In this document: piece by piece, positions 32,856 to 36,517 of the stretch
Position numbering within the stretch: position 1 is the stretch's first letter
Layout: each line of letters begins with the position of its first letter
Source: Gemmatimonadaceae bacterium
GTDB taxonomy: Bacteria; Gemmatimonadota; Gemmatimonadetes; Gemmatimonadales; Gemmatimonadaceae
DNA length: 40,818 bases
Assembly: GCA_037721215.1 (NCBI GenBank)
Contig: JBBJNV010000029.1
Coordinates: forward strand, 1-40,818
Reading direction: 5' to 3'
Position numbers and translations under genes: made by a program
The notes under the pieces: generated by a model
What the model saw: only the letters and a program-made list of their open reading frames with translations
Database searches by the model: none
What the model was told of the DNA's origin: nothing

Positions 32856-33698
32856 CTAGTCATCCACCCGAACCGACCAGTCACACGCTTTCGCGAAGCG
32901 CTGACTCAGCGCGCGTGCGTCGCCTCTACGCAAAGTTTCGCGAAACAGCTCGAGTTCCCGCTGTACTGCGGAAACGGCAGCTTCAATCGCGGGTGCATTG
33001 TCGAGCGCGACGGCGGTCCACACGTTCGGTGAGCCGGCTGCGAGGCGAGTGACATCGTGTCCGCCGCGTCCCAGTTGCCGTCGAGTGATCCCCGCGTCGG
33101 CGAGCGCCAGAGCAAGGGCAGTCGACACCAGCTGCGGCAGATGGCTCGACCACGCCAGCAAGTCATCGTGAGCGCCCGCGTCGATGACCTCAGGCTTTGC
33201 GCCAAGCGACATCCATAGCTGCCTGGCCAAAGCGAATGTCGTCGGCAGGGTGTCTGCGGCGGGACAGAGATAGACAGTGGCGCCTTCGAACAGATCCATG
33301 CGAGACGCCGCCCAGCCAGAGCGATGGTCGCCTGAAAATGGGTGCGAACCGACAAACCTCGGCCCCAGTCCCAGCCTCACTGCCGCCGAGACAATGCTGC
33401 GCTTGGTGCTTCCGACGTCGGTGACCAACTGCGCGGCTGTCGAGTGCTGCTCAATGCTTCTCAAAACATCAAAAACGGAGTCGCCATAAACCGCAATCAC
33501 AACGGTCTCGGCGTCGCCGATATCCTCCAGGCCGGGCGACAGCCGACGCGAGACTACTCCTTCCGATATGGCAGCGTCGAGGTGAGACGGATTGGAATCA
33601 TATCCGAGGACAGGAATCCCCCGTGCCGCGAGGCAGCGCGCGACCGATCCGCCGATCAATCCCAGCCCGATAACGGCGACACTACCAGCGGACTTCAT
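32856..33698 (-). CDS. tyrA: Prephenate dehydrogenase
   Basis: 280 residues. The Rossmann motif GLGLIGGSVARCLAARG binds NAD(P); VTDVGSTKRSIV and FVGSHPFSGDHRSGW are the substrate-side motifs of the TyrA family, and HDDLLAWSSHLPQLVSTAL is the conserved C-domain helix. It converts prephenate to 4-hydroxyphenylpyruvate, the tyrosine precursor. It is the last gene of the aroF-aroQ-tyrA operon, overlapping aroQ by 4 bases (ATGA). No ACT domain follows, so feedback inhibition through such a domain is unlikely; control may come mainly from the attenuator upstream. Confidence 0.95.
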   Translation of the reverse strand: MKSAGSVAVIGLGLIGGSVARCLAARGIPVLGYDSNPSHLDAAISEGVVSRRLSPGLEDIGDAETVVIAVYGDSVFDVLRSIEQHSTAAQLVTDVGSTKRSIVSAAVRLGLGPRFVGSHPFSGDHRSGWAASRMDLFEGATVYLCPAADTLPTTFALARQLWMSLGAKPEVIDAGAHDDLLAWSSHLPQLVSTALALALADAGITRRQLGRGGHDVTRLAAGSPNVWTAVALDNAPAIEAAVSAVQRELELFRETLRRGDARALSQRFAKACDWSVRVDD

Positions 33699-34003
33699 CC
33701 TTTCTCCATCTGCTGGGCCCTTCGTGATAGACCCAAAATGTGCCAGAATATCTCGCGCACCGTCTCTTCTGCCAGCCCTGCTTCACGCGCCTGTGTGACA
33801 GCGCCGCGAATCACGCTTGCCTCCCGTTGCGGATCGAGGATCGGAAATCCGAGAGCGCGCTTCAGCGTCCCCGTCCGCTGCGCCAGATCCACACGGCTCC
33901 GCAGCAGCGCCACAAACTCCCTGTCGATTCGCCCTATCTCCTCGCGGCACTCCTCCAGCTCGGCGAGGGCCGGTGATTCTTCCTCGCCAATCGAGCTCAT
34001 CAC
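33695..34003 (-). CDS. aroQ: Chorismate mutase (AroQ class)
   Basis: 102 residues, all helical. The AroQ pattern is clear: ECREEIGRIDREFVALLRSR (first helix with active-site Arg), DLAQRTGTLKRALGFPILDP (catalytic Arg/Lys), QREASVIRGAVTQAREAGL and VREIFWHILGLSRRAQQ. It rearranges chorismate to prephenate. Four-base ATGA overlaps join it to aroF before it and tyrA after it, giving a tightly coupled route from DAHP synthesis to 4-hydroxyphenylpyruvate. Confidence 0.93.
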   Translation of the reverse strand: MMSSIGEEESPALAELEECREEIGRIDREFVALLRSRVDLAQRTGTLKRALGFPILDPQREASVIRGAVTQAREAGLAEETVREIFWHILGLSRRAQQMEKG

Positions 34004-35073
34004 CGCACCAGTTCCCGGGAGGTAGTCCCGGGAAGCGACGCGCTCGGAACGGGTCGGGGGAGCTTGCGGTCGGCGGCGGCGGCAAAGGGTGCGAGACGCG
34101 CCATCAGATCGGCGAACGCAGGGAACGTCAGAGACTGATCGCCATCCGAAAGGGCGCGCTCGGGAGCCGGATGCACCTCGACGATCACGCCATCCGCGCC
34201 GGCCGCGATCGCTGCGAATGCAAGGGGGGCAACGAGATCTGCATCACCGCCGGCGTGACTTGGATCGACGATGATCGGCAAGTGGCTTTCTCGCTTGAGG
34301 ATGGGAATGGCGGAGATGTCGAGAGTGTTGCGGGTCGCCGTCTCAAAGGTACGTATGCCGCGCTCGCAAAGGACAACGTCGCCATTTCCGTGCGCCATTA
34401 TGTATTCGGCCGCCATCAGCAGCTCCGTTATCGTGGCCGAGAGTCCGCGCTTTAGAAGGACCGGCCGCTGTATGCGTCCCAACTCAGCGAGCAGCGCGAA
34501 GTTCTGCATGTTGCGCGCCCCCACTTGAAGCATGTCGGCATGCTCGGCTACAACCTCCACGTCGCGGGTGTCGAGGACTTCAGTGACGACAGGCAGCCCG
34601 GTCTGCAAGCGCACCTCAGCGAGCATGCGGAGGGCATCGACACCAAGACCCTGAAAGCTGTATGGGGAGCTACGCGGCTTGAACGCCCCGCCGCGCAAAA
34701 TGGACGCCCCCGCCGCTCGAACGGAAACGGCGGTGTCGCGGAGCATGTCAATATTCTCGACGGAACAAGGCCCGGCGATAATGGCCAGCGCCTTGCCTCC
34801 GAACGACGCGCCCGGCCCGACATTGACGATGGTTCTCTCAGCGGCAAAATCGAGAGAGGCAAGCTTGTACGGCCTGAGCACCGGCATCACCGACTCGACT
34901 CCAGGCAACGAGCGAAGGGCGATGCCTTCCAGTAACGATTCGTCGCCGATGCAGCCGACTATCGTCCTTCGTTCGCCGCGTGAAAGATGTGTTCGGAGAC
35001 CGGCTGCCTCAATCCGCTCGCGGATGTGATCGAGCTCGCGCTCGGTGATGTTCGGACGTGTGACGATGATCAT
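34000..35073 (-). CDS. aroF: DAHP synthase, KDOPS-like type (3-deoxy-7-phosphoheptulonate synthase)
   Basis: 357 residues. An N-terminal ferredoxin-like domain of about 90 residues (MIIVTRPNITERELDHIRER, with TIVGCIGDE) precedes the barrel: IIAGPCSVEN, ILRGGAFKPRSSPYSFQGLG, TEVLDTRDVEVV, QVGARNMQNF, VLLKRGLSATITE, VVLCERGIRTFE, PIIVDPSHAGG and GVIVEVHPAPERALSDGDQS. It condenses phosphoenolpyruvate and erythrose-4-phosphate, the first step of aromatic amino acid synthesis. The N-terminal domain is the usual allosteric (Tyr/Phe) site in this group. AAAGG precedes the ATG at 35073. A Tyr-codon leader and terminator lie directly upstream. Confidence 0.95.
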   Translation of the reverse strand: MIIVTRPNITERELDHIRERIEAAGLRTHLSRGERRTIVGCIGDESLLEGIALRSLPGVESVMPVLRPYKLASLDFAAERTIVNVGPGASFGGKALAIIAGPCSVENIDMLRDTAVSVRAAGASILRGGAFKPRSSPYSFQGLGVDALRMLAEVRLQTGLPVVTEVLDTRDVEVVAEHADMLQVGARNMQNFALLAELGRIQRPVLLKRGLSATITELLMAAEYIMAHGNGDVVLCERGIRTFETATRNTLDISAIPILKRESHLPIIVDPSHAGGDADLVAPLAFAAIAAGADGVIVEVHPAPERALSDGDQSLTFPAFADLMARLAPFAAAADRKLPRPVPSASLPGTTSRELVR

Positions 35074-35094
35074 TTGACCTTTCCCGGTAGAAAC

Positions 35095-35122
35095 AAAAAA
35101 GGCCCGTGAATTTCCACGGACC
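35095..35122 (-). terminator. Attenuator terminator ahead of aroF
   Basis: On the minus strand GGTCCGTG (35122-35115) pairs with CACGGGCC (35108-35101), loop GAAATT, followed by six U (35100-35095). It is a strong rho-independent terminator placed 21 bases before the aroF start codon, where only conditional termination makes sense. Confidence 0.88.
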
Positions 35123-35223
35123 GTCGAAGTATTGCGTAATGAGAGCTGTTACGAGTCTCCCTCAGTCAAGCGCACGCCTCCGAGCACGGCCCGTGATAGG
35201 GGTTTCGTAATAGTAGGAGGCGT
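35101..35223 (-). promoter_or_regulatory. Tyrosine attenuator: pause, antiterminator and terminator segments
   Basis: Three competing pairings are visible on the minus strand. (a) ACGCCTCC (35223-35216, covering Tyr and Ser codons) with GGAGGCGT (35181-35174), an 8-bp hairpin enclosing segment 2. (b) Segment 2, CACGGGCC plus GT (35195-35186), with ACGGTCCGTG (35124-35115), a 10-bp antiterminator. (c) The same segment 3 with CACGGGCC (35108-35101), the 8-bp terminator. A ribosome stalled at the Tyr codons (35224-35207) breaks (a), frees segment 2 to form (b), and prevents (c), so the operon is transcribed when charged tRNA-Tyr is scarce. The mechanism is inference; the pairings are read directly. 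Confidence 0.75.
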
Positions 35224-35245
35224 AGCATCGACGCAGGCAGGACAT
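35162..35245 (-). CDS. Tyrosine-rich leader peptide of the aroF operon
   Basis: 27 codons from ATG 35243-35245 to TGA 35162-35164. It begins MSCLRRCYASYYYETPITG, with Tyr at positions 8, 11, 12 and 13. Four Tyr in six codons directly before the antiterminator segment is the signature of transcription attenuation. No Shine-Dalgarno is present: the -10 element ends seven bases before the ATG, so transcription should begin at or next to the ATG, giving a leaderless message. The open frame runs back to 35359, but that part lies upstream of the promoter. Confidence 0.75.
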   Translation of the reverse strand: MSCLRRCYASYYYETPITGRARRRALD

Positions 35246-35251
35246 GCGCTC

Positions 35252-35281
35252 ACTGTAGCGCTGCACCACCAGTCTTGTCAA
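35252..35281 (-). promoter_or_regulatory. Promoter of the leader-aroF-aroQ-tyrA operon
   Basis: Minus strand TTGACA (35281-35276), an 18-base spacer, then TACAGT (35257-35252), matching six of six and four of six consensus bases. The predicted start site coincides with the leader ATG at 35245. Upstream, a 9-bp inverted repeat (35292-35300 with 35339-35347) may end the DUF3179 transcript. Confidence 0.65.
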
Positions 35282-35365
35282 GAAGGGCACGGGCCGGATG
35301 CTAACGGCGCAACCTAATGAAACGCAGTGCGGATCTCTCATCCGGCCGGGATGCCACACAAAGGC

Positions 35366-36517
35366 CTATCGCCCGATGCGAGTATCCGGCCGGAACACCG
35401 CCCACGCGAACCAGAAGAAATCCCCGTACGGTATCCGCACCAGTCGCCGGCCGCGAAGTGGCCCCGTGAGACCGTTCCCCAAAAGGTCCCAGCGCGTTCC
35501 TGTCTCGCGGTCGCGGAAGCCGCCGCCCTGAGCGGACTCGAAGGTGAGCGTACGATTCGCGAGCCTGCGGTCGAACACACCGGTGGCGCCGACGTCGCGT
35601 CCGCTCGCCATATCGGTTCTGTCCAGCGCGCTCGCGGTTCCCGGTGCCCAGAAGACTGCAATCGGCCGCCGCGCGATCATGTCGTTTATGACGCGCGCGG
35701 ATCGTAGCCGCGAGAACGGGTAAGCCACTGCCTCACGCTCCAGTCGCAGAGCGACGACACGCTCCATTGCAGGCAATCGCGCGTCGGTTTTGGACTTGAA
35801 GAACGCCGCAAGCGGGGATCCACCAGGAGCATCGTAACCCTTGTACGGATTCGTGCCGTACGGGCGATCGTACCCGGTCTTCCTCGAGAGAACCTGGGCT
35901 GCGGGGTACGCGCGCTTGAAATCGGCCCACGCCATTGTCTGCGATTCGAACAGTGTGAGTGCGTCACCGGCCATTACACCGACGATCGCCTCACCCGTTG
36001 CCTGCTGCCACCAGCTCTCCGTCAGCTTGTCATACATCACGAGATCGGAATGGCGGAGCCGCCCGGTTGTACCAAATTCGAGCACTCGTCCGTTGTGGCG
36101 GCGGTCGAACACCAGCGCCGTATTGCACAGGGGGCAAAATGTCACGGCGATTGGAAGATTGCCCAGGTTGTCGTTCACGATCTCGTGCCAGATGAGGATC
36201 TGGAGGGGATAGCCACGCGCCACTCCATCGTGCTCGACAACCATCACCGGTTCCCGCGGGGCCAGCCAGCGATCCGCAGACGCTACGCTTTCAAGCCGCG
36301 GGCGACTGAGTGCGGGAATTCCATCCTTGGGCGGTCCGCCCGATACGATCTCCGAGAGCGGAACCGTGTGGCGTCGGAAATCTGTCCGCCACTCAGCCGG
36401 TTGCTGGCCGCAGGCGTCATGGAGTGGGATGGCGGCGAGAAACGCACCAAACAGAAAAAGAGCAGGATGTCGCAAATCGACCTTGAGGGAGCGGGAAAGT
36501 GTCTGCAAGAGGTACAC
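35366..36517 (-). CDS. DUF3179-domain exported protein
   Basis: 383 residues. A hydrophobic N-terminal segment (LFLFGAFLAAIPLHDACGQQ) looks like a signal peptide or lipoprotein signal. The DUF3179 core follows: GIPALSRPRLESVA, PVMVVEHDGVARGYPLQIL, WHEIVNDNLG, PIAVTFCPLCNTALVFDR (CPLCNTA is the family hallmark, a possible metal or redox site), FGTTGRLRHSDLVMYDK, ESWWQQATGEAIVG, RVLSRKTGY-like YDRPYGTNPY. The function of the family is not established. The start is GTG at 36517; no strong ribosome-binding site is seen. Confidence 0.88.
   Translation of the reverse strand: MYLLQTLSRSLKVDLRHPALFLFGAFLAAIPLHDACGQQPAEWRTDFRRHTVPLSEIVSGGPPKDGIPALSRPRLESVASADRWLAPREPVMVVEHDGVARGYPLQILIWHEIVNDNLGNLPIAVTFCPLCNTALVFDRRHNGRVLEFGTTGRLRHSDLVMYDKLTESWWQQATGEAIVGVMAGDALTLFESQTMAWADFKRAYPAAQVLSRKTGYDRPYGTNPYKGYDAPGGSPLAAFFKSKTDARLPAMERVVALRLEREAVAYPFSRLRSARVINDMIARRPIAVFWAPGTASALDRTDMASGRDVGATGVFDRRLANRTLTFESAQGGGFRDRETGTRWDLLGNGLTGPLRGRRLVRIPYGDFFWFAWAVFRPDTRIGR

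Follow-up and report, generated by a model that had tools for sequence, protein, structure and literature searches.

A predicted tyrosine attenuator, conserved in Gemmatimonadota, upstream of aroF-aroQ-tyrA

The aroF-aroQ-tyrA operon of a Gemmatimonadaceae bacterium is, with high probability, controlled by a ribosome-mediated transcription attenuator responsive to the level of charged tRNA-Tyr. The candidate element lies on the minus strand of contig JBBJNV010000029.1, of which the whole 40,818-nucleotide stretch analyzed here is referred to as the window. Its anatomy, its conservation across the phylum, the covariation of its stems, and the match between its codons and the genes that follow can all be read in the DNA. 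Its features, in the order in which they would be transcribed, are these:

35276..35281 (35281-35276), minus strand: -35 box TTGACA, read directly; TTGAC occurs in 63 of the 79 homologous leaders, usually 35-42 nt 5' of the leader ATG
Between the two boxes, minus strand: promoter spacer of 18 nt from TTGACA to TACAGT, read directly
35252..35257, minus strand: -10 box TACAGT, 6 nt 5' of the leader ATG, read directly
35162..35245, minus strand: leader peptide ORF MSCLRRCYASYYYETPITGRARRRALD, 27 codons plus TGA, read directly; 79 of the 118 distinct aroF upstream regions have a homologous leader
35216..35232, minus strand: segment 1, the 5' arm of protector hairpin 1:2, holding the first Tyr codon (MFE folding, swap and synonymous-codon nulls)
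35207..35224, minus strand: sensing codons Y-A-S-Y-Y-Y, with Tyr at four of the six, read directly; Tyr is present in all 79 homologous leaders
35187..35195, minus strand: segment 2, the antiterminator 5' side CACGGGCCG, in the loop of hairpin 1:2; covaries with segment 3
35165..35181, minus strand: 3' arm of protector hairpin 1:2, reaching as far as the leader stop codon (folding, swap and synonymous-codon nulls)
35114..35124, minus strand: segment 3, the antiterminator 3' side (35124-35116) and the terminator 5' arm (35122-35114) (folding, covariation and direct reading)
35101..35109, minus strand: segment 4, the terminator 3' arm TCACGGGCC, with the second copy of CACGGGCC; covaries with segment 3
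35095..35100, minus strand: U6 tract of the intrinsic terminator, read directly (T6 in the DNA)
34000..35073, minus strand: aroF, DAHP synthase with ferredoxin-like and DAHP_synth_1 domains (Pfam PF18152 and PF00793; NCBIfam TIGR01361 over its cut-off)
33695..34003, minus strand: aroQ, chorismate mutase type II (Pfam PF01817); its start overlaps the aroF end
32856..33698, minus strand: tyrA, prephenate dehydrogenase (Pfam PF02153 and PF20463); its start overlaps the aroQ end

An original prediction, made from the window alone, had described most of this arrangement. Direct reading of the minus strand bears out, base for base, its promoter TTGACA-N18-TACAGT, together with its 27-codon leader with four Tyr in six codons and its exact repeat of CACGGGCC, which occurs in exactly two copies, at 35195-35188 within segment 2 and at 35108-35101 within segment 4. 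The terminator, GGTCCGTGG(AAAT)TCACGGGCC, spans 35122-35101 and has a 9-bp stem followed by T6. The U6 tract had been placed directly before aroF; the tract is there, but it ends 21 nt upstream of the aroF ATG at 35073. Likewise, a hairpin over the Tyr codons is present, but its length is not the 8 bp proposed, since MFE folding gives 16 pairs with bulges (35232-35216 with 35181-35165). The leader stop codon is placed 3' of segment 2. Pfam agrees with the earlier naming of the downstream genes as aroF, aroQ, and tyrA. Just upstream of the attenuator lies a gene for a DUF3179 protein (window 35366-36517, minus strand).

The window leader contains four Tyr, no Phe, and no Trp codons. At a Tyr frequency of about 2.5%, the chance of four Tyr in six codons anywhere in 27 codons is p ~1e-4; conservation across the phylum is the stronger evidence against a chance arrangement. 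AroF orthologues were gathered across Gemmatimonadota and their upstream DNA was fetched, which gave 118 distinct upstream regions, and these were scanned with a detector that requires a strong terminator and a leader in which three or more of nine codons are aromatic. An aromatic leader with a terminator was found in 79 of the 118. Every one of these 79 leaders contains Tyr, which makes up 13.7% of their residues, so that the Tyr codons that had been expected to persist in relatives do so. The other 39 upstream regions failed the detector, some of them for want of a scored terminator. Phe codons also occur in many of the 79 leaders, and several relatives may accordingly sense more than Tyr.

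The same scan was applied to other genes. Among trpE upstream regions of genomes of the family (L215-L244), an attenuator-like leader was found in 0 of 30. The idea that every biosynthetic operon in these bacteria is attenuated was thus rejected, and Trp must be controlled in some other way in the family. Upstream regions of paralogous DAHP synthases gave one positive in 16, and that one is Trp-rich; those of pheA gave aromatic leaders in two of 24. Several single loci were also observed. A paralogous DAHP synthase from the same order (L017) has a Trp-rich leader, MTSVAFRHLWWRWRGFSRGRPWCA, with a terminator, and the second DAHP synthase of genome G311 (L398) is preceded by a Phe-rich leader, LFTSAFFFGPHTG. 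Prephenate dehydratase genes have a Phe/Tyr-rich leader with a terminator upstream in a genome of the same genus (L262, genome G011) and a Phe-rich leader with a terminator in genome G033 (L267). Outside these loci, aroF orthologues mainly of Geobacter/Desulfuromonadales (L051-L110) carry leaders in which Phe, Tyr, and Trp are abundant together, for example MNSHRFYIAFSFYFWFGFYFRPSARVEL (L089), of which no report was found in the searched literature.

Segment 3 can pair with either segment 2 or segment 4, and the claim of a mutually exclusive antiterminator and terminator is upheld by covariation of both stems in an alignment of 39 leaders. In the terminator, 96.1% of cells are paired, seven of ten pairs are changed on both sides, and the covariation score is 0.301 as compared to 0.155 after shuffling. 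In the antiterminator, 91% of cells are paired and four of nine pairs are changed on both sides, with 19 double-changed cells against a shuffled mean of 4.2. Concerted changes at three places keep segments 2 and 4 alike and both complementary to segment 3. A swapping test showed, consistently, that leader copies pair more strongly with terminators of the same class than with others. Compensatory changes had been anticipated in all three stems; they were seen for the terminator and antiterminator, while the evidence for the Tyr-codon hairpin comes from tests of another kind. RNAalifold on the alignment returned the terminator only. The absence of hairpin 1:2 from its output is as expected, because this hairpin shifts with codon position, and swap and synonymous-codon nulls were therefore used for it instead. 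Across the 79 loci, the mean energy of hairpin 1:2 is -27.1 kcal/mol with its own partners and -22.7 kcal/mol (sd 0.41) when partners are permuted, a difference of about 10 standard deviations, and none of 2000 permutations was as good as the own pairing. The hairpin was also stronger than synonymous recoding at 68 of the 79 loci. Relatedness may lie behind part of the swap effect; the synonymous-codon null is free of that weakness.

The start of the leader suggests how the ribosome would enter. In homologous leaders, TANNNT clusters at -13/-12 from the ATG, which leaves about 6 nt before the AUG, and words resembling a Shine-Dalgarno sequence precede seven of 79 leader starts versus 45 of 79 aroF starts. 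Because of this conserved spacing of the -10 box and the scarcity of such words, the AUG is predicted to be at, or adjoining, the 5' end of the RNA. The transcription start is thus probably the leader AUG itself or a position no more than 1-2 nt away, which would make the message leaderless. This leaderless look, the stop codon after segment 2, and a second Tyr leader in the genome, before phhA, are points that the original prediction did not include.

We propose that start site, ribosome stalling, read-through, and the response to tyrosine are connected as follows. Transcription would begin at or adjoining the leader AUG, and a ribosome would load without a Shine-Dalgarno sequence. With ample Tyr-tRNA, the ribosome would clear the Tyr cluster and terminate at UGA; after its release, hairpin 1:2 would refold with segment 2 hidden inside the loop, whereupon the 3:4 terminator would stop transcription 21 nt upstream of aroF. 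With scarce Tyr-tRNA, a ribosome stalled on the YYY codons would cover segment 1, and the freed segment 2 (CACGGGCCG) would capture segment 3 ahead of the synthesis of segment 4, allowing RNA polymerase to enter the operon. If the leader were not translated at all, hairpin 1:2 would form and termination would follow.

Folding models of the window RNA bear on these steps. The naked RNA folds into hairpin 1:2 plus the terminator. The antiterminator forms when a ribosome footprint is masked at the second Tyr codon (Tyr11); with the mask at the fourth, it forms while segment 4 is still unmade. Stalling only at the first Tyr codon gave no antiterminator in the folding model. The last sensing codon is separated from the start of segment 2 by a narrow gap (median 9 nt), such that a stalled ribosome would cover segment 1 and leave segment 2 mostly free. 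A ribosome waiting at UGA also leaves segment 2 free in the folding model, in which case the antiterminator could precede the synthesis of segment 4, and so the off state would rely on quick release and refolding.

A covariance model built from the tyrA- or aroQ-linked leaders extended the family to other genes. It gave one strong match in the window's own genome, and in 25 genomes of the family it matched, by coordinates, before the gene for phenylalanine 4-hydroxylase (phhA), where the leaders are Tyr-rich (for example MNRAPRSYSYRYYYVPRATGRERRRVRD). The phhA gene of the window's own genome has a diverged leader, MLTLARLFHSYRSYRKNSGSCGRSRVVV (HSYRSYR), with its own terminator (contig C3, ~123351-123486; L408), and this genome therefore probably has two tyrosine attenuators, one at aroF and one at phhA. 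The model also matched before hisG, and a His-rich leader with a terminator was found in all 30 Gemmatimonadaceae hisG upstream regions examined (L420-L449), that of the own genome (L438) included. Since the sensing codons are Tyr at phhA and His at hisG, they match the product of the gene that follows. The hisG leaders were seen to have the same promoter spacing as the Tyr leaders, and many of them share a TGRG tail with the Tyr leaders.

At aroF itself, codon identity varies with operon content. Where aroF is linked to tyrA (35 loci), 80% of the sensing aromatic codons are Tyr, Trp is present in one locus, and at least one Phe in 20. Without such a partner (28 loci), Trp is found in 22 and Tyr is down to 52%; in the four pheA-linked loci, Phe accounts for 52% of sensing codons. 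Fisher's test of codon choice against operon content gives p 7e-11, a value that ignores relatedness and is not taken as proof. On the AroF tree the operon state changes only about six times, so that an independent-pairs test, with one supported pair (six on the whole tree), is unable to reach significance. The Phe codons in tyrA-linked clusters and the Trp codons where aroF stands alone could mean that the attenuator responds to aromatic amino acids collectively (Tyr and Phe, in some cases Trp) and not to Tyr alone, which would also suit a DAHP synthase that supplies all three aromatic pathways. We consider group sensing possible but unlikely, since the window leader has Tyr codons without Phe or Trp, Tyr dominates and Trp is nearly absent in the tyrA-linked clusters, and phhA, which makes only Tyr, has the same Tyr element. 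The Tyr element before phhA and the variation of leader codons with operon content instead support the reading of the window element as a tyrosine attenuator, as had been put forward.

Two further explanations dispense with the leader as a sensor. The terminator forms by itself in folding when no leader is present, and the locus might thus be a constitutive intrinsic terminator with a small upstream ORF, serving transcript insulation or encoding a small protein, with no amino acid sensing. Such an arrangement is very improbable given that segment 2 covaries with segment 3, that hairpin 1:2 is kept beyond coding needs, and that the codons vary according to the genes behind them, with His at hisG as one case. 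Alternatively, the RNA could sense tRNA-Tyr or tyrosine directly, as a T-box, riboswitch, or protein-binding antiterminator, and the ORF would be incidental; in other bacteria, T-boxes are what has been cited as RNA-level control of tyrosine genes (PMC1262725). In Rfam searches at gathering and permissive thresholds, nothing came over threshold: the best hit was Leu_leader, with 15.9 bits against a cut-off of 50, none of the amino acid operon leader families (Trp, His, Leu, Thr, Phe) reached its gathering threshold, and no T-box match was found at E up to 5 within 35050-35320. The part conserved beyond segments 2-4, moreover, is an ORF with many codons for the product amino acid, and we regard direct sensing as the least probable of the explanations weighed.

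The tyrosine attenuator proposed here shares with the trp, his, and pheA attenuators of E. coli a product-rich leader peptide and mutually exclusive 1:2, 2:3, and 3:4 hairpins, but it differs in the amino acid, in the stop codon after segment 2, and in an apparently leaderless start without a Shine-Dalgarno sequence. In E. coli and enterobacterial designs, the leader stop codon is not placed after segment 2. Tyrosine T-boxes of Firmicutes use the same signal, tRNA-Tyr charging, at similar target genes, and none was detected here; T-boxes bind tRNA directly and do not need leader translation.

Attenuators before aroF are already known. The aroR leader of Corynebacterium glutamicum (Neshat et al. 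2014, as described in PMC11802643) belongs, like the window element, to a ribosome-mediated attenuator before a DAHP synthase gene and contains Tyr. It comes from another phylum, and its sequence is Phe-Tyr-Phe, whereas the window leader has four Tyr, no Phe, and aroQ-tyrA after aroF. In that account aroR, the nearest tested case that has a Tyr codon, responds to Phe limitation and not to Tyr availability, which by analogy may count against Tyr sensing by the window leader. The uORFC-13-1 motif of Acholeplasma, a computational prediction with 24 representatives upstream of aroF, shares the small ORF and the downstream terminator, but it belongs to another group and has at least one Phe codon in place of the Tyr cluster (PMC8632094). 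A leader peptide that apparently lacks a ribosome binding site has a precedent in the ilvBNC attenuator of C. glutamicum (Morbach et al. 2000, as listed in PMC4046766), for which a leaderless mRNA has been proposed and which concerns branched-chain amino acids in another phylum. In a comparative survey of 2005, attenuators are listed for histidine, threonine, and phenylalanine, whereas tyrosine has T-boxes only (PMC1262725). A Shewanella paper names an "attenuator sensing tyr-tRNA" for aroF, with reference to older E. coli work (PMC2659441). The searched literature, with most subscription papers outside its reach, held no tyrosine attenuator or attenuation in Gemmatimonadota, in line with the original statement that none is reported for the phylum, and no example of demonstrated tyrosine-specific ribosome-mediated attenuation was found in it. 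The element appears to be a real and conserved tyrosine attenuator, new in its specificity and phylum and ordinary in its mechanism class, with a response to tyrosine that is predicted from its sequence.

We lean, with some reserve, toward a broader view in which Gemmatimonadota use one leaderless attenuator frame, consisting of promoter, leader, and hairpin and often a conserved TGR tail encoding segment 2, as an interchangeable cassette. It would carry Tyr codons at aroF-aroQ-tyrA and phhA, His at hisG, Phe where aroF is linked to pheA, and a mixture of aromatic codons where aroF stands alone, and its codons would follow gene content over evolution. Such a cassette would include tyrosine-specific ribosome-mediated attenuation, tyrosine being largely absent among the amino acids known to be sensed in this way, and a cis-acting tyrosine regulon that takes in phenylalanine hydroxylase. 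It would also amount to a natural codon-swap experiment, made many times in one phylum within one RNA frame, so that the rules linking codon identity, position, and operon content would be directly testable. For Gemmatimonadota, a little-studied and mostly uncultured soil phylum, it would predict how aromatic and histidine synthesis are controlled, and that phenylalanine hydroxylase serves tyrosine supply.
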